From positions 1 to 22,282 of the IMG/VR virus record IMGVR_UViG_3300009024_000079: 22,282 nt of DNA; one strand, 5' to 3'. The position numbers were made by a program, and so were the translations under genes. How positions within the stretch are numbered: position 1 is the stretch's first letter; every line of letters begins with the position of its first letter. This document shows positions 1,492 through 22,281 of this stretch, in pieces. The notes under the pieces are model-generated. The model searched no databases. It worked only from the letters and a program-made list of their open reading frames with translations, and was not told where the DNA came from. The DNA is from a virus.

Positions 1492-2046
1492 TTAGTCTGT
1501 CAACCCCTTCAACTTATCTATATTATTTACAGCATAATGACCAATTCCAATCGCATCTGAAACGTCATTGTCTGTTACGATTTTATCATAGTTAATCTCA
1601 ATAAGCTTTATAGTCCTATTCTTTCTTACGGACCGCTCGTTATTTTTGTACCAAGATTTGCTTTTGCCTGGGTTCTCGGACATCAGCTTAAACTTTTCTT
1701 CCTTGGTTAAAGCCTTGTTTCCCAAATAGTTTTGCCACGTAATTGGTGGAACAGACACAGCCTTTTTGATTCCCGAAGAAATTGCTGCACCAACTATTGA
1801 TCCTTGTACCAGGGTTAGGTCCAGCAGGGTCTTGGGGCTATTCAGGAATACTACCTGCTCAATAACTATATAGTCTACATCAAAGATCTCAAAGATTGCC
1901 TGTGTTTTCCTAGCTGCGTCGCCAACCTTCTCAAAAGCATTATCCCCAGAGAAATTTATCTTTCCATACTTAATTAATTGATCATCGTGAAAGATGGCAA
2001 AGGCCATACTGTTAGTACTAGCATCAATAGAGCAGATCTTATTCAT
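1492..2046 (-). CDS. ruvC: RuvC-like Holliday junction resolvase (RNase H fold)
   Basis: 184 residues, close to bacterial RuvC (about 170). The three acidic motifs of the RNase H-like fold are in order: IDAS with D8 near the N-terminus, YIVIEQ with E63 at the end of a strand, and a C-terminal DVSDAIGIG with D161 and D164. The DA-I-x-G-H pattern near the end is typical of RuvC-type resolvases. It would cut branched DNA from recombination or concatemers before packaging. The start overlaps the upstream zinc-ribbon gene by eight bases. A basic stretch (NNERSVRKNRTIK, about 135-147) may bind DNA. Whether it resolves four-way junctions or acts as a broader nuclease cannot be read from sequence. 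Confidence 0.85.
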   Translation of the reverse strand: MNKICSIDASTNSMAFAIFHDDQLIKYGKINFSGDNAFEKVGDAARKTQAIFEIFDVDYIVIEQVVFLNSPKTLLDLTLVQGSIVGAAISSGIKKAVSVPPITWQNYLGNKALTKEEKFKLMSENPGKSKSWYKNNERSVRKNRTIKLIEINYDKIVTDNDVSDAIGIGHYAVNNIDKLKGLTD

Positions 2047-2326
2047 CTTTACCCTTTATGATGCCCTTGATTTCTCGCAGAGCTCTAGATACGTCTTGTG
2101 GGTTAACGAGACATTTCTCACAAAGTACCTCGTCATTGTATGCCGAGAGTCTTGACTGGCAAGCTTTACACAGCCTAACCTTTCCCAGTTTACGAGAGCG
2201 TCTTGTTATTGCATAACGTTCTGCAATTTTCTCCTTAGTCGCTTCTTCTCGACATTCTGGAGAACAGTATATCTGGTAAGATATCTTAGTGGTAAATGGT
2301 AGGCTACACCATTGACAGTTTTTCAT
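2039..2326 (-). CDS. Double zinc-ribbon protein
   Basis: 95 residues with two likely metal sites. The N-terminal one is C4-x2-C7 paired with C21-x3-C25 (YCSPEC); the second is LCKAC (C53, C56) paired with LCEKC (C69, C72). Between them is a basic helix (KEKIAERYAITRRSRKLGK). The C-terminal residues (VSRALREIKGIIKGKDE) are helical. A good ribosome site (GGAG, seven bases) precedes the ATG. It overlaps the end of the Cas4-like gene by 23 bases and the start of the RuvC-like gene by eight, so the three are probably co-translated. Likely a DNA- or protein-binding accessory factor of the nucleases; enzymatic activity is not evident. Confidence 0.75.
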   Translation of the reverse strand: MKNCQWCSLPFTTKISYQIYCSPECREEATKEKIAERYAITRRSRKLGKVRLCKACQSRLSAYNDEVLCEKCLVNPQDVSRALREIKGIIKGKDE

Positions 2327-3104
2327 CTATAGGCTCCAAGGAATTGATCTTAACGACTCCCTTGCCAGCCTCATCACAAGTTGCCCTAATCGGACATGTC
2401 TTGCAAATCTTTGAATTAGATCTATAGTTTTTCTCGGGCAGGGTTCTATCGACCCATGCCTTTCTGACCGTTCTCATCCAATCAAATGCCTGGTTTACCC
2501 ACCGTACATAATAGTCATTGATTTCTACTGGAAGTATCAGTAGCTCATGATTGTTTTTGTTTTCATAAATAAGGACAGCTTCTGTCTTATTCAGAATCTT
2601 CATATAAATAAGTAGTTGGATTAGGTGATACTTTGCTGGCTTACCTGCAGCCTTGCGGTACTCAAATGCTTCCATTGGCATTGTCTTAATCTCACCAAGT
2701 AGCTCTTTGCCCTCCCAATTAAGCATTACGTCACCGTAACCAAAGATTGGCGGGTCTTCGCTAATTACCTTGAACTCAGAGTCAGCCAGGAAATCGTCTA
2801 CGTTTCCCATGGCTTCCTGAATACGCTCGTGAGACTTAGTGCCAGCGGTCATGTTTGCACCACCGTATGCGTCTGCGTTGTCTTCAAAGGTGGTGCCGTC
2901 AAATGCTAGGTACCAGTATCTTGGACATTCCCCATGGCTAAATGCAATTGTGCTTGGAGCAAAAGACTTTTTCTGTTGGTGTTTTGCAACACGCTTAACA
3001 GTATAGCCAGACTTAATCTTTTCTATCAACTGATCAGTGTCAAGAAAGGATGCCTTCTTTGCTTCATGCTTTAGCATTACTTCGCTTAATAGATTTTTTG
3101 CCAT
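2304..3104 (-). CDS. Cas4-like PD-(D/E)XK nuclease with Fe-S cysteines
   Basis: 266 residues. It carries the Cas4/RecB nuclease signature: GTKSHE (H92), GYGDV (D125), GEIKT (E138-x-K140) and Q163 in LIQLLIY, plus four cysteines placed as in [4Fe-4S] members (C60, then C234, C237, C243). Such enzymes degrade single-stranded or duplex DNA ends. In a phage lacking any CRISPR array the expected use is DNA end processing for recombination or replication, beside the RecA-like and resolvase genes. The N-terminal 50 residues are basic and of unclear role. No ribosome site is obvious before the ATG, which lies six bases after the previous gene, suggesting coupling. All catalytic residues are intact. 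Confidence 0.88.
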   Translation of the reverse strand: MAKNLLSEVMLKHEAKKASFLDTDQLIEKIKSGYTVKRVAKHQQKKSFAPSTIAFSHGECPRYWYLAFDGTTFEDNADAYGGANMTAGTKSHERIQEAMGNVDDFLADSEFKVISEDPPIFGYGDVMLNWEGKELLGEIKTMPMEAFEYRKAAGKPAKYHLIQLLIYMKILNKTEAVLIYENKNNHELLILPVEINDYYVRWVNQAFDWMRTVRKAWVDRTLPEKNYRSNSKICKTCPIRATCDEAGKGVVKINSLEPIDEKLSMV

Positions 3105-3110
3105 GTTGTG

Positions 3111-3431
3111 TTAGCGAGTTATATACTTTAGGGCTGCCACAAGATCCTTGATGGACTCTGCTGCTGTATAGTATATGTTCTTCTTCGCTCTATCTCCCTT
3201 ATCTACATTTGTCATCCAAGTCGCCTTGAATGACATTTTGGCTGCAATTGCTTGCAGGCGAACAATTTCAAGAGTAGCAACCTGAATTGGAATGTCTGGC
3301 CTTACGATAAGCTTAGCAATCATAGTTAATGCCTGCGTAAGCTCTTCGTCCTGCATAAATTCTGAGATCTCTGCAAGACCATTTACCATTTCTAATGTTG
3401 TCTTCTCTTCTTTTACTTCTTGTTCCACCAT
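3111..3431 (-). CDS. Small helical protein of unknown function
   Basis: 106 residues, predicted mainly alpha-helical: an acidic N-terminus (EQEVKEEKTTLEMV), a central helical hairpin (EELTQALTMIAKLI and VATLEIVRLQAIAAKM) and a C-terminal helix (IKDLVAALKYITR). There is no cysteine, signal peptide or membrane segment. It is preceded by a TGGTATAAT motif whose hexamer ends three bases before the ATG, instead of a normal ribosome site, and it follows the exonuclease gene whose stop lies inside that motif. Its place between an exonuclease and a Cas4-like nuclease hints at an accessory role in DNA metabolism. I do not recognise a family. Confidence 0.75.
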   Translation of the reverse strand: MVEQEVKEEKTTLEMVNGLAEISEFMQDEELTQALTMIAKLIVRPDIPIQVATLEIVRLQAIAAKMSFKATWMTNVDKGDRAKKNIYYTAAESIKDLVAALKYITR

Positions 3432-3434
3432 ACT

Positions 3435-3443
3435 ATTATACCA
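3435..3443 (-). promoter_or_regulatory. TGGTATAAT motif before helical unknown gene
   Basis: Full extended -10-like sequence overlapping the exonuclease stop codon; the hexamer ends three bases before the ATG of the 106-residue gene. A TTGTAA lies 15 bases upstream (4 of 6 matches to the -35 consensus, short spacer). The very close ATG means a conventional start at +7 would fall at or after the start codon, so it may instead be a translation or processing signal. Confidence 0.4.
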
Positions 3444-4044
3444 CGAACTCGCCGTTTACAATGTTTTGCTTGTCTTTGCTAGTGACACTAGCCTTGCCAA
3501 CAAACCATGGTAGCAGGATATCATATAGATCAATCAGAAGGTTTACATCTTGGATCTGGTACTTCTTCATCTCTGCCCAGGCCTTTGGGTCACCTGCCAT
3601 ACAGTTAATCCATAGCTTGAATCCTGAGTGCTTTACCTTTGCACCAACGCCAAGCTTTTGTGCAACATAGTCTAGCTTGTTAGATGGGAACTGAAAGTTA
3701 GCCTTAACAATACTCATTAGGTCAAGGTCCTTGACTGGTGATGGTGGAGTGAAACCATTCTCTAGGAATTCACGATTGATGTGCTTGTGGTCAAATGCCG
3801 CTGAGTTCCAGCCAACTAGAACATCGGCCTCTTCCATTAGAGCGTGTAGCTCTTCTAGCATTACCCTGTATCCGTCGTGGTGCACAGACTTAAAGATAAC
3901 TTTCTTTGTGCCACCCCACCTTGCGCCAAAGCAAAGCATTGTTGTTGGCTCAATAATTTGGTCTATGCTTACGTTCTGATCCCATAGACCCCAAACATAA
4001 GCTTTAATTGGTGTAGTCTCAATATCTAAATACAGTGTCTTCAT
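3436..4044 (-). CDS. DnaQ-like 3'-5' exonuclease
   Basis: 202 residues of DEDD-type exonuclease. The ExoI motif is LDIET (D7, E9), ExoII is VGWNSAAFD (N80, D85), and ExoIII is YQIQD (Y162, D166), which makes it a DEDDy enzyme. It has no polymerase domain attached. The C-family polymerase is encoded about 1.4 kb upstream in the same operon, so a proofreading role in trans is plausible, as DnaQ does for DnaE in bacteria; a separate DNA-processing role is equally possible. The start shares its last base with the stop of the resolvase-like gene (TAATG), implying coupling. The stop codon TAA lies inside a TATAAT motif ahead of the next gene. Confidence 0.87.
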   Translation of the reverse strand: MKTLYLDIETTPIKAYVWGLWDQNVSIDQIIEPTTMLCFGARWGGTKKVIFKSVHHDGYRVMLEELHALMEEADVLVGWNSAAFDHKHINREFLENGFTPPSPVKDLDLMSIVKANFQFPSNKLDYVAQKLGVGAKVKHSGFKLWINCMAGDPKAWAEMKKYQIQDVNLLIDLYDILLPWFVGKASVTSKDKQNIVNGEFVV

Positions 4045-4334
4045 TATTTTTTGCTTTCTTCTATTAGTTGTTCTAGTAAACCTAATTCAATTATGGCCAG
4101 CCTAGTCTTCCTATTGGTCTCTCCCAATACTACGACAATTGCTGGGTCATTCTTATTCTTCATGGCATCGGTGGTGGCCTTGGCCCAGTTGTCCTGGTTT
4201 ACTGTAAACCCTTTAGGATATTCCTTAAAGTCTACAGTAAAGTTTTCCCAAGTAGCGTCACCCTTCTTTGTGCCACGACCGCTATTCTTAATAGCCTTGG
4301 CACCTAGACGACTAGTTTCTGATCTCTCGCTCAT
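4044..4334 (-). CDS. Resolvase-like PD-(D/E)XK endonuclease
   Basis: 96 residues from the ATG at 4334-4332. The frame extends to a GTG at 4391, but that would deepen the overlap with the upstream zinc-ribbon gene to 80 bases and add a tail unlike the family. Seen: an N-terminal helix with E6 (SERSETSRLG), a Gly/Lys loop then GD (D26), a strand pair with D35-x-K37 (VDFKEY), and a later hydrophobic strand PAIVVVLG. This order resembles small archaeal-type Holliday junction resolvases and phage VRR-like nucleases, with Asp in place of the usual Glu of E-x-K. It probably cuts branched DNA. A second junction-cutting candidate (RuvC-like) lies 2 kb downstream. Confidence 0.65.
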   Translation of the reverse strand: MSERSETSRLGAKAIKNSGRGTKKGDATWENFTVDFKEYPKGFTVNQDNWAKATTDAMKNKNDPAIVVVLGETNRKTRLAIIELGLLEQLIEESKK

Positions 4335-4497
4335 AGTCCTGTTTCTTTTTCTTAACACCCAAGGATACCATGGATACGTGCTTTTGTCCACACATCCAGG
4401 TGATTTCTTTTGTTTCTGGATAAAGCCTAATACTTGTAACTATTTCTTTACAGGTGTGACAAGGAAACTTTCCCTGAAATATCTCGTACCTAGCCAT
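4312..4497 (-). CDS. Small zinc-finger protein, 61 residues
   Basis: Visible ligands are C13 and C16 (FPCHTCKEI) and C36 plus H40 (WMCGQKH), a one-site zinc ribbon on two beta-hairpins. The C-terminal third is highly charged (VKKKKQDYEREIRN). AAGG lies nine bases before the ATG, and the start overlaps the recA stop by eight bases. The far end overlaps the resolvase-like gene by 23 bases. Most likely a small nucleic-acid-binding accessory protein in the recombination operon; no enzymatic motif is present. Confidence 0.75.
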   Translation of the reverse strand: MARYEIFQGKFPCHTCKEIVTSIRLYPETKEITWMCGQKHVSMVSLGVKKKKQDYEREIRN

Positions 4498-5497
4498 TTA
4501 GTTTTGCCTTAATACTTTCTTGTAACTCTGGGTTATCACGAACATGCGTTACAAATGCATCCCTACCCTGAACCTTATTGCCATCTGGTAGGATATACCA
4601 TGCACCAGTTCTCTCAACATACCCCATCATTTCCGCTGTATCTACCAGGTCACCAATGTCATCAATTCCGATCAGGTCTCCCCTAAACATAAAGTCATAC
4701 TCGCCAGACTCTCCTGGAGCTGACGTCTTAGAGTTCTGAACTTCCCAGCGTACTCTACGGCCCACCTTTTGCTCAATAAGCTTGTCTCCAACCTTAATCT
4801 TTCTCTTCACCGCATTGTTGTCAGACGATGATGAGAATAGCTTTACAATAGTTGATGAGAAGAACTGCGTTGCGTTACCGCCAGTAGGAACTGACTGAGT
4901 ATACATTGCAGTAATATTGTTACGTGCCTGTGAGATAGCAACAATAAGTGCTGGCTTCTCCTGGTTGTTAGCGTAGTTAATCATCATCCAAGCATGCTTT
5001 AGGTCTTTAGACTCTGATCCAATCTGCTTGGTCTTGTCTAGTTCCTTTAGCTCTGTAGAGTCCTTCTCAAAGTATACCGCTGGTAGTAGCGAGCTTATAG
5101 AATCAATTACGACCATATCAACGCCTGCGTGCAAGAGAGCAACTACAACATCGACCATGTCGTTAATACTTCTGGCCTCGGAGTAGATTAGCTGAGAGGT
5201 ATCTACCCCTAGCTTCTCTGCCCACTCTTGGTCATAGGACATCTCTGCGTCTACCCATGCACAAAGCTTTCCTTCTTTTTGTGCCATACCAATTGTCTGC
5301 AAGCAAAGCGAAGACTTTGCACTAGACTTACTTCCCCATAAAAGAACTTGTCTTCCATATGGAAAGCCTCCACCTAAAGCAGCATTTAAGCCTGGGCTAG
5401 GTGTGGGCTGAAACTCGGTCTTAATGCCTACAGCAGGCCCTAGACGCTTTCTGATCTTTGGATCTAGCATCGCTAGAGCTTCATCAATTGTTGTCAA
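4490..5497 (-). CDS. recA: RecA-like recombinase
   Basis: 335 residues, the length of bacterial RecA. The start is TTG at 5497-5495, supported by GGAGG six bases upstream; the next in-frame start is an ATG nine codons later. Seen: P-loop region at 55-62 (GSKSSAKS), DAE with E85 as candidate catalytic glutamate, and Walker B MVVIDSIS (D132). SQARNNI and QFFSSTIVKL match the L1 and L2 neighbourhoods of RecA. It would form filaments on single-stranded DNA and catalyse strand exchange during recombination-dependent replication or repair. The glycine before the P-loop lysine is Ala, a departure from the consensus G-x4-G-K-[ST]. It overlaps the polymerase gene by 14 bases. Confidence 0.9.
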   Translation of the reverse strand: MTTIDEALAMLDPKIRKRLGPAVGIKTEFQPTPSPGLNAALGGGFPYGRQVLLWGSKSSAKSSLCLQTIGMAQKEGKLCAWVDAEMSYDQEWAEKLGVDTSQLIYSEARSINDMVDVVVALLHAGVDMVVIDSISSLLPAVYFEKDSTELKELDKTKQIGSESKDLKHAWMMINYANNQEKPALIVAISQARNNITAMYTQSVPTGGNATQFFSSTIVKLFSSSSDNNAVKRKIKVGDKLIEQKVGRRVRWEVQNSKTSAPGESGEYDFMFRGDLIGIDDIGDLVDTAEMMGYVERTGAWYILPDGNKVQGRDAFVTHVRDNPELQESIKAKLNG

Positions 5498-8400
5498 TTA
5501 CATCCTCCAATATAACGGTTCCATCTTTTGTTTTTCCTAGAGAGAAGCTATAGGAGCTACCCTCTTTAATCTTCATATATGCCTTTGGAAAGGCAGTCGG
5601 AAATACTGTGACTGGGTGCAGACTTCTTGAAGAGTCTGCCAATGTTAGCGTTGCCATCTTCTTTCCAGCTTTTGTAATCCTTGGCTTAAACGATACAACA
5701 TATAGCTCATCTTCCTTGAATGGAAGAGTCTTATAGTTTAAGTATTTAATCAGTGACGATTCTTGCTTGCCAACCTGATCAACTGGTATAGCGTTTACGA
5801 TTCTGTTATCGCTACACAATAAGATATAAGTCCTACCAGTTTCAATAGTTGTTTGCTCATCATCAAAAATGCTTATGCTTCCAGTCTTATCTAGGATCTC
5901 TACCCTGGACCAGCCCTGGCCTCGCTTGATGTTCTTAACCATTCCCATTAATATGAACGCACCCTTTTCCTCAAACTCTTCCACGTCATTCATGAATGCG
6001 TGATAGTGCTGTGGAACAGATATGTTGAACTCTGGTAGGTTTAAGAACTCGTATAGGTTCTCTCGAATCTCCTGATCATTCCTAGGATTATCTGGGAATG
6101 TTGCTGCACCAATAACTCTTAGTGCTTGGAGAGATCTGCTGTTCACTCCGCTACCCTTTTGGAATACGAACTCTTCAATCTCTTTGTATGAGCTAAATGG
6201 TCGCTCCTCCATAAACTTGCCTGCAATGTTGTCGGATATGTACTTAATGCCAGTTAGCCCGAAGCGAATACCCTTGCCCTCAATTTTAAAGTCCATGTCT
6301 GAGTCATTAATATGTGGCAGCTTAATGCTAATGCCCATACGCTTTGCCTCAATAAGGTACTCTGTTCTAGCATCCTTATCCTTCTCATTCTTGAGAATAG
6401 AGTACATAAACTCTAGGGGATAGTATGCCTTAAGCCAAGCAGTCCAGTAAGATAGTGTGGAGTATGCTACAGCGTGTGACTTGTTAAATGAATATCCTGC
6501 GTGGGCCTCAAAGTCATGCCACAGATCAGTGGCTACGTTAGGAGACAGGAATCTTGATGCACCCTGGACAAACCTCTCCTTGAATACGTCAAACTCTTTT
6601 GCATCCTTTTTCTTACCAATAATCTTACGAACCTTGTCGGCTTCTGCCATTGACATACCGCCAAGCTCTGTACAGGCCTGCATAACCTGTTCCTGGTATA
6701 GAATACACCCATAGGTCTCTGCTGTAAAGGCCTTCATTACCTGGTGGTGGTAGCTAATGTTCTGCTTACCGTGCTTTCGAGCAATGTAGTCTTTACCAAT
6801 AGTATTAGCAGCACCTGGACGAACCAAAGCGTTAGAGGCTGCAAGCTCTGCAAAGTTCTTTACACCCATCTTTACCAATAGGTTTGTATAGGGAGTTGCT
6901 TCACACTGAAAAACACCCTTTGTAAAGCCGTCAGAGAGCATCTGATAGACTTTGGTGTCTTCCATGTCTACAGATAGCAGGTCAATTTTCTTGCCCTCAC
7001 GCTCCCCTATAATGGTCAGGGTGTCCTTTAGAACACTTAGGGTCTTTAGTCCTAGAGCATCAATCTTAATAAGACCAATCTGCTCTGCCTCTGTCATATC
7101 TACCGCAACTACTGGGATTCGCTCTTTGTTTCCTGGAGATGTCCTAGTTTCCATTGGAGCAAACTTAAAGATAGGCTGCTTGGATGTAACAACACCAGCA
7201 GCGTGGATACCAGTACCACGAATCCTACCACGAAGCAAGTCCCCATACTGCTCAATTTCTGGGTACTTCTCCCTGAATTCACGTGTCTGTTTAGATGTGC
7301 AGTACTCGTCCCAAGTGTCCACAAGCTTTAGAACCTTGTTGACGTCAGTTAGCGGTATGTGTAGTGCACGTGCAATGTCTCGCACAACACCTTTATCCTT
7401 GAACTGCAAGAATGTAGCAATAGAAGCAACGTGCTTGTACTGTCTAACTAGATAGTCTTTAACTTCTTCACGACGGGTGTCCTGAATATCAGTGTCGATA
7501 TCTGGGAAGTCATTACGTTCTGGATTAATAAAGCGGAAGAATAGCAGTCCATGCACAATGGGGTCAATGTCTGTAATTCCTAGAGCATAGCATAGCAATG
7601 ATCCTGCAGCAGATCCACGTCCTGGACCTACCATGATACCCTGCTTCTTTGCCCAGGCAATCATGCTTCTAACCACCAAGAAGTATGGACCAAAGTTCTT
7701 ATCCTTGATTACTTTTAGTTCTTCATCTAGTCGTGCAAGGTACTCATCAGTGTGTACGTTTCGTTCTTTCAAGCCAGCGACGGCTAGTTCATACAACTCT
7801 CCATCTGGATTTTGATACTGCACAGGCAACAAGTCTAGGTGATCTTTGATGTCATAGTCCTGGATGCTGTCTGCAATTGTTCTTGTGGCTTCGTACATAT
7901 CTTCACGGTCAATGCCCTGGGCCTTCATTGCGTTGTGCATCTCTTCATCGGATAGCAGGTGAATGTCAAACTTGTTGAAGGACATCTGTCTGTCTGCACC
8001 GTATAGGTAATCTAGACGGTCCATCAGGTTGTCATGCTTCTTTGACTTTTCGTATGTAGCGTCCTTCTCAACCTTATTAGCATAAGAGTTAAGAATAAGT
8101 TTAAGTTCCTGGATTTCTTTCTGTCCAGCATCGGAATGGTGGCAGTCTGGGGTTACTACGGGTGTGACCCCGTACTCATCTGCAAGGGCAAGCAACTGAT
8201 TGTTGACCTCTGCAGGATTGTGTGGCATTACCTCGATGTAGTAGTCTTCACCGAATACACGCTTGTGCCATTCAATAATACGCTTAGCTTCTGCTAGCTC
8301 TTCTGCCTCAATAGCTTTTGCTAGGGCACCAGAGAGGCACCCAGAAGTGACGATTAGTCCCTCTGAGTACTTCTCTAGCACCTCATAGTCAATACGTGGC

Positions 8401-8762
8401 TTCTTAAAGAACCCCTCAGTCCAAGCAATTTCATTTAGCTTGTTAAGGTTCTCCAGTCCAACCTTGTCCTTGGCGAGGATGACTATATGGTTATAAACCA
8501 GGTCTAACAGACCATCCCTTACATCATTGGCACGCTGATCAAAGCGGTCCTGTGTAATATACCCCTCAACACCAAGGATTGGCTTAATGCCCTTTTCTTT
8601 TGCAGCACGGTAAAACTCTCTGTGACCAGACAGCGAACCATGGTCTGTAATAGCAATAGCAGGCATACCCAGTTCCTGGGCACGGTCTACATACTCTTGT
8701 GGTGTGGCAATGCCATCAAACAATGAGTAGTGTGTGTGAACGTGTAAGCCAATGTATGTCAT
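5484..8762 (-). CDS. dnaE: DNA polymerase III alpha-type (C family, PHP domain)
   Basis: 1092 residues, a full-length DnaE-type replicative polymerase. The PHP domain (about 1-215) keeps candidates for all nine metal ligands: H7, H9, D16, H41, E66, H92, C141, D205, H207. The polymerase core follows: GPGRGSAAGS (about 378-387), the palm Asp cluster in PDIDTD (420-425; D423 and D425 match the E. coli catalytic pair by alignment) and the third Asp at D568 (IKIDALGL). A helix-hairpin-helix region is near 870-890 and an OB fold near 930-970. The intact PHP site suggests intrinsic exonuclease activity. The gene follows the SSB gene by 11 bases and overlaps recA by 14. It would replicate the phage genome; no clamp or clamp loader is visible, so host DnaN may be used. 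Confidence 0.95.
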   Translation of the reverse strand: MTYIGLHVHTHYSLFDGIATPQEYVDRAQELGMPAIAITDHGSLSGHREFYRAAKEKGIKPILGVEGYITQDRFDQRANDVRDGLLDLVYNHIVILAKDKVGLENLNKLNEIAWTEGFFKKPRIDYEVLEKYSEGLIVTSGCLSGALAKAIEAEELAEAKRIIEWHKRVFGEDYYIEVMPHNPAEVNNQLLALADEYGVTPVVTPDCHHSDAGQKEIQELKLILNSYANKVEKDATYEKSKKHDNLMDRLDYLYGADRQMSFNKFDIHLLSDEEMHNAMKAQGIDREDMYEATRTIADSIQDYDIKDHLDLLPVQYQNPDGELYELAVAGLKERNVHTDEYLARLDEELKVIKDKNFGPYFLVVRSMIAWAKKQGIMVGPGRGSAAGSLLCYALGITDIDPIVHGLLFFRFINPERNDFPDIDTDIQDTRREEVKDYLVRQYKHVASIATFLQFKDKGVVRDIARALHIPLTDVNKVLKLVDTWDEYCTSKQTREFREKYPEIEQYGDLLRGRIRGTGIHAAGVVTSKQPIFKFAPMETRTSPGNKERIPVVAVDMTEAEQIGLIKIDALGLKTLSVLKDTLTIIGEREGKKIDLLSVDMEDTKVYQMLSDGFTKGVFQCEATPYTNLLVKMGVKNFAELAASNALVRPGAANTIGKDYIARKHGKQNISYHHQVMKAFTAETYGCILYQEQVMQACTELGGMSMAEADKVRKIIGKKKDAKEFDVFKERFVQGASRFLSPNVATDLWHDFEAHAGYSFNKSHAVAYSTLSYWTAWLKAYYPLEFMYSILKNEKDKDARTEYLIEAKRMGISIKLPHINDSDMDFKIEGKGIRFGLTGIKYISDNIAGKFMEERPFSSYKEIEEFVFQKGSGVNSRSLQALRVIGAATFPDNPRNDQEIRENLYEFLNLPEFNISVPQHYHAFMNDVEEFEEKGAFILMGMVKNIKRGQGWSRVEILDKTGSISIFDDEQTTIETGRTYILLCSDNRIVNAIPVDQVGKQESSLIKYLNYKTLPFKEDELYVVSFKPRITKAGKKMATLTLADSSRSLHPVTVFPTAFPKAYMKIKEGSSYSFSLGKTKDGTVILEDVIDNN

Positions 8763-8773
8763 CTAAGTAATTC

Positions 8774-9427
8774 CTACCAGTCAATGTTGGTAGAAGTTAC
8801 AGATGGTGCATCAAACCCGAAGAAGAATGACTCTTGCTCTGGGTAAGGCACCTCTCGGACAACCTTTTCTAGGTTGTGTAGCTCATACTCGCCCCATGCA
8901 AATGGTTCTGAGTCTGGGCTAGTAGGAATAAGAGTATAGTTAGTCTCGGTTCCCTGGCCATTGCGCTTTAGCTTCCAGCCAAGGTTTGAGATGCTTCCAG
9001 TCTCTAGTGCATACTCACGAATAGTGTTAAACGAAGACTGCTTGCTAACACCCTGCGACCACACGGCAATGTATGGGTCTTCTAGACCATCATCCACTAG
9101 CACGTTGCAGTAGAAACGTAGGCGTGCTCTCCAGCCAGCCTTTGGCTCCTTGCGGGCCATCTCGCAACCAAAGCAGCGGCCCTCTGTGTCCTGAGTACAG
9201 GCAGCCTTACGCTTGTAGTCTTTTGGATTAGTGTGCTCTGCAATAACTACAGACAGACCACGGTCTTCTGAATAGTGTGCAGAGTCTGTGTCTAGCTCTT
9301 CGACAAAACGGATCTTTGCAGACTGTCCGTCAACTAGCTTTACCCATCGGACCTTTGGTCCGTTTGATTCATATTTTGGCTTATCAAGTAATGCGTTGAT
9401 ATCTTTTAGCCCTTTGATTACGCTCAT
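8774..9427 (-). CDS. Single-stranded DNA-binding protein, gp32-like with zinc site
   Basis: 217 residues. A likely zinc site is formed by H65, C77, C85 and C88; T4 gp32 uses H64, C77, C87 and C90, so the layout is close. Around it are basic and aromatic residues expected for an OB-fold binding strand (GWRARLRFYCNVLV, about 98-111). The protein ends in NIDW, an acidic-aromatic tip reminiscent of the protein-docking tips of SSB and T7 gp2.5, though a long acidic tail is absent. A strong ribosome site (AGAAGGA) precedes the ATG. It is sandwiched between primase and polymerase, which fits coating the lagging-strand template. The gp32-like assignment rests on the zinc pattern and context, not overall identity. 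Confidence 0.85.
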   Translation of the reverse strand: MSVIKGLKDINALLDKPKYESNGPKVRWVKLVDGQSAKIRFVEELDTDSAHYSEDRGLSVVIAEHTNPKDYKRKAACTQDTEGRCFGCEMARKEPKAGWRARLRFYCNVLVDDGLEDPYIAVWSQGVSKQSSFNTIREYALETGSISNLGWKLKRNGQGTETNYTLIPTSPDSEPFAWGEYELHNLEKVVREVPYPEQESFFFGFDAPSVTSTNIDW

Positions 9428-9451: not shown

Positions 9452-10396
9452 TTAGTTTAACATAGAGGCGATGGACTTGTCAAATGAAACCTCAAGATTT
9501 TTTATATCATCATTTGACATGTCGCCTATGTCTTTATATTCTTTATTTAGTTGTATTACGGATACACGAGAGCCAAGCTTTTTAATTATCCTGTCTTTCA
9601 TGTTACCGCCTGCTTCATCATTGTCTGCAATAACAATAATGTCATTGAAGTATTTTTGAAGTAGATCTGTTTGTATATTGGACACGTTAGAGCCCAGGGT
9701 CGCTACCGCTGGAAATCCACACTGGTCCAATCTAATTGCATCAAAGGATGACTCGACAACGTACACCCTGCTGGAAGTCTTTACTCTATGTAGATTAAAC
9801 AAGGTCTTTGCTTTAGGAAGGCCTGGGGTATTCTTAAAGTCCTTGCCCTCGATAGACCTTCCAACAAAACCAACTGGCAGGCCGTCTGGAGCATGTACTG
9901 GTATAGTAACCATGTCTTGCTTTTCTGAAAATCCAAGAGAAAACTTTCTTACAGAATCTTCTGTAATTTGTCTACCAGTATAGTATCTCATTGCTCTTGG
10001 AGATGCCAAGGCGTCTGAGCTAAGTCTTTTTATTAATAGCTCATCAAATGCCTTGTACTCTGGCTTTTCAACCAATGCCTTTTGAATTTCATCGGATAGG
10101 TTGGTCTGAACCTCTTTGGACTTAATGAATCTTGCTGCCTCGAAGTAGGTTCTTCCAGTAACGTGCATCACTAGCTCGTGTAGGTCTGCAATCTTGTGGC
10201 AGGCAAAGCAGAAGAAGGTTCCCTTAGACTTGTCTACTTCTCCAGCAGGAGTTCTGTGATTAGGGTGAAATGGGCAGAATAGTAGGAAGTCAACATCAAT
10301 CTCGCCCTCTATTGTGAGGCCGCTTCCTGTGAGAATACGTTTAATCTGCTCTGAGGAGTATGTATGACCGTTGTCCCGTCTATTCCCTCTATCCAT
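9452..10396 (-). CDS. dnaG: DnaG-type primase
   Basis: 314 residues, shorter than bacterial DnaG (about 600) because it lacks the C-terminal helicase-binding domain. The N-terminal CHC2-type zinc finger is C41-P-F-H44 with C63-F-A-C66. The TOPRIM domain shows E215 in VVESSFDAI and D258-x-D260 in ADNDEAGG. It makes RNA primers for lagging-strand synthesis alongside the helicase encoded just upstream. The ATG at 10396 is the only NTG codon in frame before the zinc finger, so the 88-base overlap with the preceding gene appears real. The next gene is the SSB, 24 bases on. Confidence 0.92.
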   Translation of the reverse strand: MDRGNRRDNGHTYSSEQIKRILTGSGLTIEGEIDVDFLLFCPFHPNHRTPAGEVDKSKGTFFCFACHKIADLHELVMHVTGRTYFEAARFIKSKEVQTNLSDEIQKALVEKPEYKAFDELLIKRLSSDALASPRAMRYYTGRQITEDSVRKFSLGFSEKQDMVTIPVHAPDGLPVGFVGRSIEGKDFKNTPGLPKAKTLFNLHRVKTSSRVYVVESSFDAIRLDQCGFPAVATLGSNVSNIQTDLLQKYFNDIIVIADNDEAGGNMKDRIIKKLGSRVSVIQLNKEYKDIGDMSNDDIKNLEVSFDKSIASMLN

Positions 10397-10648: not shown

Positions 10649-10656
10649 ATTATACC
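10649..10656 (-). promoter_or_regulatory. GGTATAAT motif before helicase-primase spacer gene
   Basis: GGTATAAT follows immediately from the helicase stop, and its hexamer ends seven bases before the ATG of the 110-residue gene (AGAGGGT between). The base before GG is A, so it lacks the T of the extended -10. No good -35 is seen. Shared octamer with the motifs at 13417 and 3435. Confidence 0.45.
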
Positions 10657-11876
10657 TAGTTATCTTGGAAATCCTTGTATTTGTACCAACCTTTGTCGAA
10701 GTCAGCCTGAATAAGAAATTCCCCCATAAATCCATTACGGTTCTTTCTAAATACACATTCAATAATGTCAGAGTTTGCACCTCTACCCAGAGCAAGTACC
10801 CAGTCGGCGTCGTAAGCGATCTGACGGCTCCAAGCAGTCTGACCTAGGGTTGGCACTGTATCTAGCTTTGTAACGTCATCTGGAGTCGCTGAGGAGATAG
10901 CTATGATAGGTACCTCTTCTGAGATAGCCATAAGCTTTAGCTCACGAGAAAGGTTCTTCATCCTAACAGTCTCGTTCTCGGACTTTTGGTTTGGAGACAT
11001 TAGCTGTAGGTAGTCAACAATTACAAAGTCTGGCTTGTACTGATCAATCTTTCCACGTAGAACAGATGGTGTAACTTCTCCACCAGAATCATTAGAGATA
11101 ATGTGGAACTCTGGCCTGCCCTGAATTTTGGAACCGTGCCACTTTTTAAGGTCATCAATCTCTACCTGGCCAGAACTAAGCTTGCGGTGTGAGAATAGGC
11201 CCTCACCCATAATAGTGAATACACGGTTACGAACTTCTGTCTCTGACATCTCAAGGCTGACAATCATGGGTGTCTTTCCCTGCTTCCATGCCTGTACTGC
11301 AAAGTATAGAGACAACCAAGACTTACCAATACCTGGATAGGCTAGAAATACACCAAGCTGTCCTGGCATAATTCCCGCTGGCAGGTAGTCGTCAAATCCT
11401 GGCATACCAGTTTTAATTCCTGTTGCTCCAAGATCCGCCATCTTTTTTGCATTCTCGTAGTATGCGATAGCTGACTCAAGGTCTGTGGCATCGATGTCTC
11501 TAATTGCAGACGTGTTCTTTTTTAGTGCAGAGGTCTGTCCAATTAGTTTCTCTAGGGCTACGGTAGAGTTGCCATTCTGGACATCTGCTGCTGCATCACG
11601 CAACATTTCCTTAATACTATCATTAAGGTATTCTGACTGAAGCTCTTCTAGATGGTGCTTCGTGGCACCGATACCCTGGACTGGTTGGAAGTCACGGAAC
11701 TTGTCCACTACCAATGATGATGGTGGGACTGAGCCATTCTTTTCTGAGTAGGATCTGATGAACTCCCAGACATCCTTATGGGTTCTAAGCAGATTGTCTA
11801 CGTTAGCCTGCAGTAGTACGTGGACCTGCTTGTCATCAAGTACTGCCGATATTAGCTTTGCTTCTGTATTACTCAC
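10656..11876 (-). CDS. dnaB: Replicative DnaB-type helicase
   Basis: 406 residues, the RecA-fold hexameric helicase of the replication fork. The start is GTG at 11876-11874, overlapping the previous gene by eight bases. An N-terminal helical domain (about 1-130) precedes the ATPase: Walker A AYPGIGKS (179-186, K185), a catalytic Glu candidate in VSLEMSE, and Walker B VIVDYLQL (D288). The QTAWSRQIAYDADWVLALGR segment fits the arginine-finger side of the DnaB core. It unwinds the duplex 5'-3' and would pair with the downstream primase. It is slightly shorter than bacterial DnaB (about 470). The stop TAG abuts a GGTATAAT motif ahead of the next gene. Confidence 0.93.
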   Translation of the reverse strand: MSNTEAKLISAVLDDKQVHVLLQANVDNLLRTHKDVWEFIRSYSEKNGSVPPSSLVVDKFRDFQPVQGIGATKHHLEELQSEYLNDSIKEMLRDAAADVQNGNSTVALEKLIGQTSALKKNTSAIRDIDATDLESAIAYYENAKKMADLGATGIKTGMPGFDDYLPAGIMPGQLGVFLAYPGIGKSWLSLYFAVQAWKQGKTPMIVSLEMSETEVRNRVFTIMGEGLFSHRKLSSGQVEIDDLKKWHGSKIQGRPEFHIISNDSGGEVTPSVLRGKIDQYKPDFVIVDYLQLMSPNQKSENETVRMKNLSRELKLMAISEEVPIIAISSATPDDVTKLDTVPTLGQTAWSRQIAYDADWVLALGRGANSDIIECVFRKNRNGFMGEFLIQADFDKGWYKYKDFQDN

Positions 11877-20290: not shown

Positions 20291-20944
20291 CTAAACCTCT
20301 TCTAGCGTTACAGATATGTTCCAGAAGTCAAAGTTATTTGCACCACGCTTTTCTACGGAGTAGGTAAAGTCAGAAAAGAACATCTCAACTATCTGATTAT
20401 ACTGCCCTAGGTGTGCGTATGCCGAATCATCATCTCCAAAGGATGAATACTTATCATATGCAAGGTATACCCAGAATGATCCGGAATGATTTTCATACCA
20501 GTTAAGTATCTCTACACCACCAGCACCGCCATCTGTAGTGTACTCAAACTGATTGTTGCCATACATGTCTGACCTTCCAGCTGTAGCGGCGGGGTCTTGG
20601 GATGACTCTATGGCAAAATCTGGTCTAAGGGCATATGATCTAGATGGTAGCATATCCCACGATGTAGAAATAGAAAGTTTATCGGCAACGTGAAAAGATC
20701 TCATTCTTCCATTAATCATTCTTTCACGATTCTCTATACGCTCTATGTCAAAGCTGATTGGGCCACGGTTGTCATCTGATAGGATTATAAAATCGTCGCT
20801 CAGAGTGCCCGAATAGTCTGCACCCACTTCGTATCCCTGTGGTAGGTAAAGCCCGCCCTCTAAGGTTCCTGGGTTGTTTGCCCAAAGCATTGCCTGTGGC
20901 CTAGCATACTTAGTACGCCCAGCCATGTAGTCTGATGTTGCCAT
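20291..20944 (-). CDS. Probable distal tail protein (Dit-like)
   Basis: 217 residues. It lies between the tape measure and hub genes, the place of Dit in siphovirus tail modules. Features are mostly beta-type: ISFDIERIENRERMINGRMR (about 63-82), LSISTSWDMLPS, SGSFWVYLAYDK, VEMFFSDFTYSVEKRG and a C-terminal NISVTLEEV. The region GRMRSFHVADKLSISTSWDML fits the strand pairs of tail ring proteins. No signal peptide or catalytic motif. The ATG overlaps the tape measure stop and AGG lies five bases upstream. The Dit name is based on order; another tail-tube or adaptor protein is possible. Confidence 0.7.
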   Translation of the reverse strand: MATSDYMAGRTKYARPQAMLWANNPGTLEGGLYLPQGYEVGADYSGTLSDDFIILSDDNRGPISFDIERIENRERMINGRMRSFHVADKLSISTSWDMLPSRSYALRPDFAIESSQDPAATAGRSDMYGNNQFEYTTDGGAGGVEILNWYENHSGSFWVYLAYDKYSSFGDDDSAYAHLGQYNQIVEMFFSDFTYSVEKRGANNFDFWNISVTLEEV

Positions 20945-22281
20945 TAGAACCTATTACTCCTAATCCTCTGTGAGTCGATCTGTTTAATTTGTGTCATAAC
21001 CGATCTTGCAATTTGATCTGGGTTTGCATCTGATTTTACATTTACGTTTACACTATAATTATACACTGATTCGCCAGAATATGTTCCAGAGTTTACAGCC
21101 TTCATTTTATCTAGTCCAAAGTTCTGTACTGCATACTTACGCATTACGAACTCTCCTGGAGTAAGCATTGCTGGAACTGTGTCTGTGCCCCTGGCAAATC
21201 CCCCAGCTGCAAAATATTTTGGAACCATTCCACCAGATGATAACGGTATTGAATACTTTTGACCTGGGTATATCAGGTTGGGGTTGCTACCAATAATAGA
21301 CTTATTGGCATTATAGATCTTCTTCCACTGTGAGGCAGAACCATAAAACTTTTTGGCAATTCCAGATAGCGTATCGCCACTCTTTACGGTATATGTTTTT
21401 GTAGTAGGCTCTGCAGCTTCTGGTGCTGGGGTCTGCGTAGGCGTTTCTGCTGGAGTTGGCTCAGTCGGTGTAACTGCTTCTGTAGTGTTGTCACTAAGTA
21501 TCTTATCTGCATCAACAGTGATAGAGGCAGATCCATCTTCACCTATAGTTAGGTCTACGCCTTCGATGGCATTAAATGCATCTATGAGTGACTGCTTATA
21601 TGCATCAGTTTTTGTTATAGCTGCATCTATGTTACCCTCAATAAGTGACCATGCTGTTGCACTCTTGCCAAGATAGTCTAGCTCTTCAATCCGAAGGTCT
21701 CTGGCTTCCTCTGCAATCGTAAGCAATCTTTGATTTGGTTCTATCCTTGACTCTTCAATTTCGGCAATGTTTTTGGTTAAAGTTTCAATTTCTGATTCTA
21801 TCTCTTTTTTGGTTAGAGTCTTTTCTATCTGCTTTCCAGTCTCCTCATCCCATACTTTGAATGTAATCTTTAGGCTTTCTAGTTCTGCCTTGCGAGCCTT
21901 CTCTAGGTTTGTTGACTGTGCATCTCTTGCTCTCTCAGCCCGAAGCTTTCTCTCTTCCCTCTGTGCCTTTGCTGCTGCTGCTAGGTCACCAGAAGCAAGA
22001 GCATCTGCTACATCTAGCTGTGCCCTTGATTGCTCGACTAGTGCCTGGTTTGACTCGTAGATACTGTCTAAAGCTTCCTGCCTTTGATCATACTTATCAT
22101 TTATCTTTGACTCTTCTTCAGAGATTAAAGATAGTCCGTACTGGTAGTCATCTAGAACTACCTGGTCTTTTGCAATTTCTTGCTGAGCTAGCTTAATTGC
22201 ATCTAATGTGTCCTGGTTATCTGCGGTAAACTGTAACTGTATTGCATTTTCCTGAGAACTAAAATAACCCTGAATCTTACT
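20944..22281 (-). CDS. Tape measure protein, C-terminal part with LysM domain (partial)
   Basis: The frame is open from the window edge, so the gene begins outside; 445 residues are visible. The TTG at 21726 is internal, because coding-like coiled coil continues upstream. Visible residues 1-190 are helical and charged ([38 protein letters not shown]). A Thr/Pro/Ala-rich linker (about 270-292) leads into a LysM domain (about 296-346; [18 protein letters not shown] ... [10 protein letters not shown]), then the usual tape measure end ([20 protein letters not shown]). The protein sets tail length and is released at infection; LysM would bind peptidoglycan and help local cell-wall engagement. Confidence 0.9.
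21244..21396 (-). other. LysM peptidoglycan-binding domain within the tape measure
   Basis: About 51 residues with the LysM beta-alpha-alpha-beta pattern: [18 protein letters not shown], then [16 protein letters not shown], then [11 protein letters not shown]. It is flanked by a Thr/Pro linker upstream and the Gly-rich tape measure end downstream. Confidence 0.9.

Follow-up and report, generated by a model that had tools for sequence, protein, structure and literature searches.

Whether an intact PHP proofreader rules out a separate exonuclease, and the reverse, has been under debate since 2013 (parts of PMC3666897 versus parts of PMC3919608 and PMC4731781). In Escherichia coli, the C-family polymerase III alpha is accompanied by a separate exonuclease, epsilon; passages of PMC3666897 describe its PHP domain as inactive and epsilon as a DEDDh protein with an alpha-binding tail. 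In Mycobacterium tuberculosis, DnaE1 combines an intact nine-ligand PHP domain with a separate exonuclease gene (sections of PMC5636811 and PMC4731781). Among phages, the DnaE-like polymerases of four Stanwilliamsviridae (Wakanda, BillNye, StarPlatinum and Jay2Jay) also have an intact PHP domain, and among the papers listed by literature searches on phage C-family polymerases no title on the PHP state of these enzymes was seen. The stretch analyzed here (the window) is the entire virus record IMGVR_UViG_3300009024_000079, 22,282 bases long and itself a genome fragment, with the remainder of the genome beyond the search. Like M. tuberculosis it encodes an intact nine-ligand PHP polymerase and a separate exonuclease, and both genes were found on the minus strand at the ends given by an earlier, sequence-only reading:

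5484..8762, minus strand: DnaE-type (C-family) DNA polymerase, 1092 amino acids (Pfam, phrog_405, alignment, predicted structure)
3436..4044, minus strand: predicted stand-alone DEDDy 3'-5' exonuclease, 202 amino acids (phrog_403, motif, predicted fold)

The interpretation preferred here, held with moderate confidence and drawn from sequence comparisons, is that the phage would supply its own DnaE-type replicase with the PHP domain as main proofreader, the DEDDy exonuclease being an optional accessory cassette. The parts are known and their pairing is a new variation on them: an ordinary PHP-intact phage DnaE together with an optional B-family-type accessory.

The polymerase displayed the domain order of DnaE-type C-family enzymes (PHP, NTPase/palm, fingers, helix-hairpin-helix), matched phrog_405 (E 0) and the Pfam families PHP (E 2e-48), DNA_pol3_alpha (4e-73) and finger (3e-45), and contained all three catalytic aspartates (D421, D423, D568). 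Its PHP domain covered about residues 1-230, where the nine metal ligands (H7, H9, D16, H41, E66, H92, C142, D206 and H208) read HHDHEHCDH. The stretches bearing them aligned with the DnaE proteins of Thermus aquaticus and M. tuberculosis, bearing out the earlier claim that all nine ligands are kept. The motif HHDHEH[C/H]DH is scored as an 'active' PHP in a 2026 survey (part of PMC12926913). An AlphaFold2 model built on a 30-row alignment reached a mean predicted local distance difference test (pLDDT) score of 87.7, with 10-residue blocks of the PHP domain mostly above 90. Along the greater part of the chain, the model matched the DnaE structures of T. aquaticus and M. tuberculosis, and at this whole-chain level of comparison the PHP site was not seen disrupted. 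By analogy with what has been published for DnaE1 of M. tuberculosis and the polymerases of Thermus, the PHP domain is most likely the working proofreader.

Editing exonucleases of B-family polymerases carry the motifs DxE, Nx2-3(F/Y)D and Yx3D, and all of these positions were filled in the window exonuclease (D7/E9, N80/F84/D85, Y162/D166). Residues D7, E9, D85, Y162 and D166 were invariant in a 30-row alignment, which gives a DEDDy signature; the Exo III motif was YxxxD (Y162, D166) and not the DEDDh form of polymerase III epsilon (DnaQ). Seven residues, including N80 and F84, were kept in 31 of the 32 clade representatives, the remaining one being without the Exo III part. The protein matched phrog_403 (E 4e-69 over residues 1-183), while epsilon-like DEDDh proteins fell elsewhere (phrog_192 / PF00929). 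Its model (pLDDT 82.9, below 50 for the last 19 residues, 184-202) most resembled the editing domains of B-family polymerases (Z 16.1 to 17.3 across 162 to 183 residues). In the VIA structure comparison, all 50 listed rows were B-family polymerases or complexes that bear their name, and Foldseek pointed the same way. Motif and predicted fold together make the exonuclease a putative free-standing editing domain of B-family-polymerase type, without a C-terminal zinc finger. Of the earlier label 'DnaQ-like DEDDy', the stand-alone gene and the DEDDy class stood, and 'DnaQ-like' applied at superfamily level only, not in the sense of epsilon. M. tuberculosis differs here, since its dispensable DnaQ homologue has a catalytic histidine in the parts of the sources consulted. 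An origin as a domain lost from a co-resident B-family polymerase was rejected, none of 20 related or comparison records having a B-family polymerase.

The exonuclease gene sat in a slot bounded by two genes:

4044..4391, minus strand: Holliday-junction-resolvase-like gene (phrog_2002), directly upstream of the exonuclease
3111..3431, minus strand: phrog_9818 gene, directly downstream of the exonuclease, the other edge of the slot

The exonuclease was an optional cassette between these edges. Here 'absent' denotes absence from the slot and from the fetched locus. Of 80 loci fetched by the polymerase alone, 24 had the exonuclease, 41 lacked it and included both slot edges, and 15 were not assessable; addition of 65 polymerase-bearing loci fetched by an exonuclease query, positive by construction, brought these to 89, 41 and 15 of 145. 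After later scans, dereplication at 98% core identity gave 102 representatives (23 of 150 unique clade polymerases, not assessable for the exonuclease, were dropped), with the exonuclease present in 32 and absent from 70. The edge genes were less than 400 nt apart in 50 of the 70 exonuclease-minus representatives. On a polymerase tree built with the PHP part excluded, the exonuclease changed state 7 times, at least 6 of them forced by well-supported branches, and it was absent from the deep branches and from the Streptomyces phages. In the 32 carriers, exonuclease identity was correlated with polymerase identity (Mantel r 0.67, a value reached by none of 2000 permutations), so the simplest history would be a single gain and several later losses.

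No substitute exonuclease was matched among 10 scanned genes of exonuclease-minus slots (one single-strand DNA-binding protein, one sub-threshold cupin, eight unmatched), so among the slot genes scanned there was no simple swap for another recognizable exonuclease. In six exonuclease-minus loci (L005, L008, L016, L305, L317 and L321) the slot held 2-3 genes of about 180-290 amino acids, and four slot genes scanned from L005, L008 and L317 gave no Pfam match.

Wherever they could be read, the nine PHP ligands were invariant across all 102 representatives (truncated frames left gaps, which were set aside), and they were among the 38 invariant columns of the 230 in the domain. Because the exonuclease came and went while the PHP ligands stayed invariant, core proofreading is likely the task of the PHP domain, with the exonuclease in an accessory role. 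The sequence-only reading had allowed either that the phage proofreads by two routes or that the exonuclease does something else; co-occurrence of an intact PHP and a separate exonuclease held, but the variable exonuclease beside the unchanging PHP spoke against two equal routes. Pairwise PHP identity, compared within bins of core identity whose pairs were non-independent, was higher in carrier pairs at 0.75-0.80 (0.796 versus 0.692) and 0.80-0.85 (0.789 versus 0.739) and slightly lower at 0.85-0.90 (0.817 versus 0.834) and 0.90-0.98 (0.907 versus 0.925). There was no clear sign in these sequences that the exonuclease relaxes constraint on the PHP domain. The clade thus offers close polymerases whose PHP ligands are intact wherever they can be read, some accompanied by a second exonuclease at one slot and others not, so that the question of one or two proofreaders is testable in matched pairs.

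Several points weigh against PHP as main proofreader with an optional accessory. A complete ligand set alone is not proof of PHP activity, and residues beyond the metal ligands may be needed for it (part of Barros 2013). Most records behind the absences were fragments. PHROGs annotates phrog_403 as 'DNA polymerase exonuclease subunit', and the co-divergence of exonuclease and polymerase, which fits common descent, would equally fit a working pair. Finally, Wakanda and BillNye have a different RNase_T/DnaQ-like gene elsewhere in their genomes, and given this the need for a second exonuclease may be commoner than the cassette implies.

The minus-strand gene block ran from helicase, primase, single-strand DNA-binding protein, polymerase, RecA-like recombinase, a 61-amino-acid protein and the Holliday-junction-resolvase-like gene to the exonuclease, the phrog_9818 gene, a Cas4-like nuclease and a RuvC-like resolvase, the members beyond those listed above being:

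10656..11876, minus strand: DnaB-type replicative helicase (Pfam, PHROGs)
9452..10396, minus strand: DnaG-type primase (Pfam, PHROGs)
8774..9427, minus strand: single-strand DNA-binding protein (phrog_9721)
4490..5497, minus strand: RecA/UvsX-like recombinase (Pfam, PHROGs)
4312..4497, minus strand: small 61-amino-acid protein carrying CxxC pairs, encoded between the RecA and resolvase genes, in most relatives listed
2304..3104, minus strand: Cas4-like PD-(D/E)XK exonuclease (Pfam, phrog_1706)
1492..2046, minus strand: RuvC-like resolvase (Pfam, PHROGs)

The exonuclease ATG and the resolvase stop shared one base (TAATG). With collinear, closely spaced genes and this overlap, the earlier assignment of polymerase and exonuclease to the same operon appeared a fair inference. 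Both proofreaders could work together: the PHP domain would remove misinserted single bases, and editing in trans at the same fork would fall to the DEDDy enzyme. This is considered unlikely, though not strikingly so: the two genes share a strand and a block, the proteins co-diverge (Mantel r 0.67), the predicted fold is that of an editing domain, and two exonucleases on one replicase have been proposed for M. tuberculosis with its DnaQ homologue (part of PMC4731781). However, the exonuclease gene lies within the recombination part and not beside the polymerase, 70 of 102 relatives lack it with their PHP ligands unaltered, and a docking element was not evident, the last 19 exonuclease residues having a pLDDT below 50. 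A minority possibility with a real chance of being right is that the exonuclease is confined to recombination or host-DNA turnover and never acts at the replication fork, as its neighbors (RecA, two resolvases and a Cas4-like nuclease), its overlap with the resolvase stop and the occurrence of its family in mycobacteriophage Bench, a phage without a polymerase profile match in its record (A-, B- or C-family), would suggest; but RecA relatives were found in 0 of 80 distant carrier loci, so the link is not general. In the preferred interpretation, with PHP as main proofreader, the DEDDy enzyme would be a 3'-5' exonuclease in an accessory role, an editing domain of B-family type that stands alone and is encoded beside a resolvase gene, most likely trimming 3' ends in recombination-dependent replication or adding further editing in trans, and would not be an obligatory epsilon subunit of the replicase.

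Matches to the phrog_403-type exonuclease were found in 1,166 of 50,697 phage records. Exonucleases of this family occurred in Microbacterium, Arthrobacter and Mycobacterium phages, as here, the closest cultured carriers being Microbacterium phages (60-64% identity). None of six cultured exonuclease carriers tested had a DnaE gene, and phrog_403 was found in none of 22 cultured DnaE phages tested, the two further phage records of that search being carriers that lack DnaE; within the sample taken, the pair of DnaE and phrog_403 was seen only in the uncultured clade. Two of the six carriers, Pumpernickel and Boersma, encoded a family A polymerase with a recognizable exonuclease domain of its own. 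Across the 20 records searched, an A-family polymerase was found in one, that of Arthrobacter phage Boersma, and the whole record of Bench gave no match to A-, B- or C-family polymerase profiles. Among 80 more distant metagenome loci, a family A polymerase was found in 17 and DnaE in none, and 77 of the exonucleases ended, by pattern, in a zinc-finger-like CxxC...CxxC tail. The window form is tailless, as were 102 of 105 matches from the earlier loci outside three cultured references. A general link between this exonuclease and RecA was rejected, a RecA relative being present in 0 of the 80 distant loci. As a speculative extension with only a small chance of holding, PHP-intact phage C-family replicases, that of the window included, would be clamp-independent, having lost the canonical clamp motif, and PHP-proofreading, gaining and losing a polymerase-agnostic editing domain that serves A- and C-family enzymes in trans; if true, the family would be a natural with/without experiment on two proofreaders sharing a fork.

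Phage C-family polymerases of Pbunavirus and Wifcevirus (NP3, EC150), the former also matching phrog_405, differed from that of the window in having destroyed PHP ligands and an epsilon-like gene directly upstream. A set of 253 unique phage polymerases, each 850 amino acids or longer and drawn from capped lists of best matches rather than a census, comprised 177 with all nine ligands, 69 with a destroyed site and 7 that were unscorable (four truncated frames of the window's clade, three of them with intact ligands as far as readable and one showing none; two that look destroyed; and L271). In L271:10001-13105, a long-flanked frame, the PHP ligands were not alignable (--N-E-CDH), possibly through a split or disrupted N-terminus. 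Where at least 700 nt upstream and aligned starts were available, an epsilon-like gene was found upstream of destroyed-PHP polymerases in 67 of 67 assessable loci and of intact-PHP polymerases in 0 of 165. Its stop and the start of the polymerase were no more than 50 nt apart in 36 of 68 measured cases (maximum 1,580 nt); L178:2898-6343 and L179:2883-6544 are examples of such loci, with the upstream gene often adjoining. The two representatives scanned, from NP3 and EC150, matched RNase_T, with DEDDh read from their letters. Because the destroyed-PHP group formed a single clade (one change on the tree), its association with epsilon counts as one event, and the clade may descend from a proteobacterial DnaE already without the site. 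The contrast agrees with the correlation between PHP state and separate exonuclease in bacteria (part of PMC3666897). It bears on whether the window exonuclease could instead be the main proofreader, a phage epsilon, with the PHP domain kept merely as a scaffold. The E. coli PHP domain does play a structural role (passages of PMC3666897), and broken-PHP phage polymerases have a neighboring exonuclease gene, but their profile-tested neighbors belong to another family (RNase_T / phrog_192), and the metal ligands, which a scaffold alone would not need, were invariant even in exonuclease-minus relatives; this reading is highly improbable. In phiT1 and Onyinye, according to annotation, DnaE was split by a small frame (L162:4986-8268 and L506:12001-15549).

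The best listed phage relatives of the window polymerase were Streptomyces phages with 54-57% full-length identity (StarPlatinum 49%), the four Stanwilliamsviridae thus spanning 49-57%. These four shared with the window the order helicase, primase, single-strand DNA-binding protein, polymerase, RecA, resolvase and Cas4-like gene, followed by a RuvC-like gene in the three read that far. Wakanda had the gene order of the window, save small extra genes and the lack of the exonuclease, and phrog_403 was found in none of the four complete genomes, unlike in the window. By gene order and polymerase identity, the block is probably the replication-recombination region of a tailed phage, an uncultured relative of the Stanwilliamsviridae Streptomyces phages.

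The sequence-only reading had seen no clamp or loader and supposed that the polymerase may use the host clamp. The first point was true of the window for PF00712, the one clamp or loader family searched there, which gave no match; relatives were searched in place of the missing genome, and beta clamp, PCNA-type clamp and delta-prime-type loader families (PF00712, PF02768, PF13177, PF00705) were each found in 0 of 38 records, with positive controls. Of these records, 24 were cultured phages described as complete genomes. The T4-type clamp family PF02916 was found in 0 of 20 records, but its control likewise gave no match, so this zero carries no information. The second point was left without sequence support: the beta-clamp binding motif of cellular DnaE1, QxxLF between the helix-hairpin-helix and OB domains, was sought as Qxx[LM][FY] after aligned residue 850, and none of the 150 polymerases in the window's clade had it. 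Among cellular DnaE proteins it was present in 61 of 78, always at the same aligned position, where 11 of the 17 others had an LF- or IF-ended variant. Of the other phage polymerases, none of the 69 with a destroyed PHP site had the motif, as against 4 of 31 further ones with intact PHP and 0 of 3 further unscored ones. Timinskas and colleagues report a motif in 99% of DnaE1 (part of PMC3919608), and actinobacterial-type cellular DnaE mostly has a clamp motif, unlike the window polymerase. At the corresponding region, a stretch like NLYEYLNLPEF (residues about 902-912) was largely conserved in the clade. To judge from these sequences, the polymerase may reach the host clamp via another surface or work without a clamp; for replicases with neither clamp gene nor clamp motif, what holds them on the DNA becomes a question.

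The host is probably an actinobacterium, because WhiB matches above the cut-off were obtained in 10 of 14 metagenomic relatives; together with about 42-43% G+C, this suggests a low-GC actinobacterial host. At 20944-22281, the window held an open-ended tail-region protein with a segment that, judged by eye, resembled LysM.

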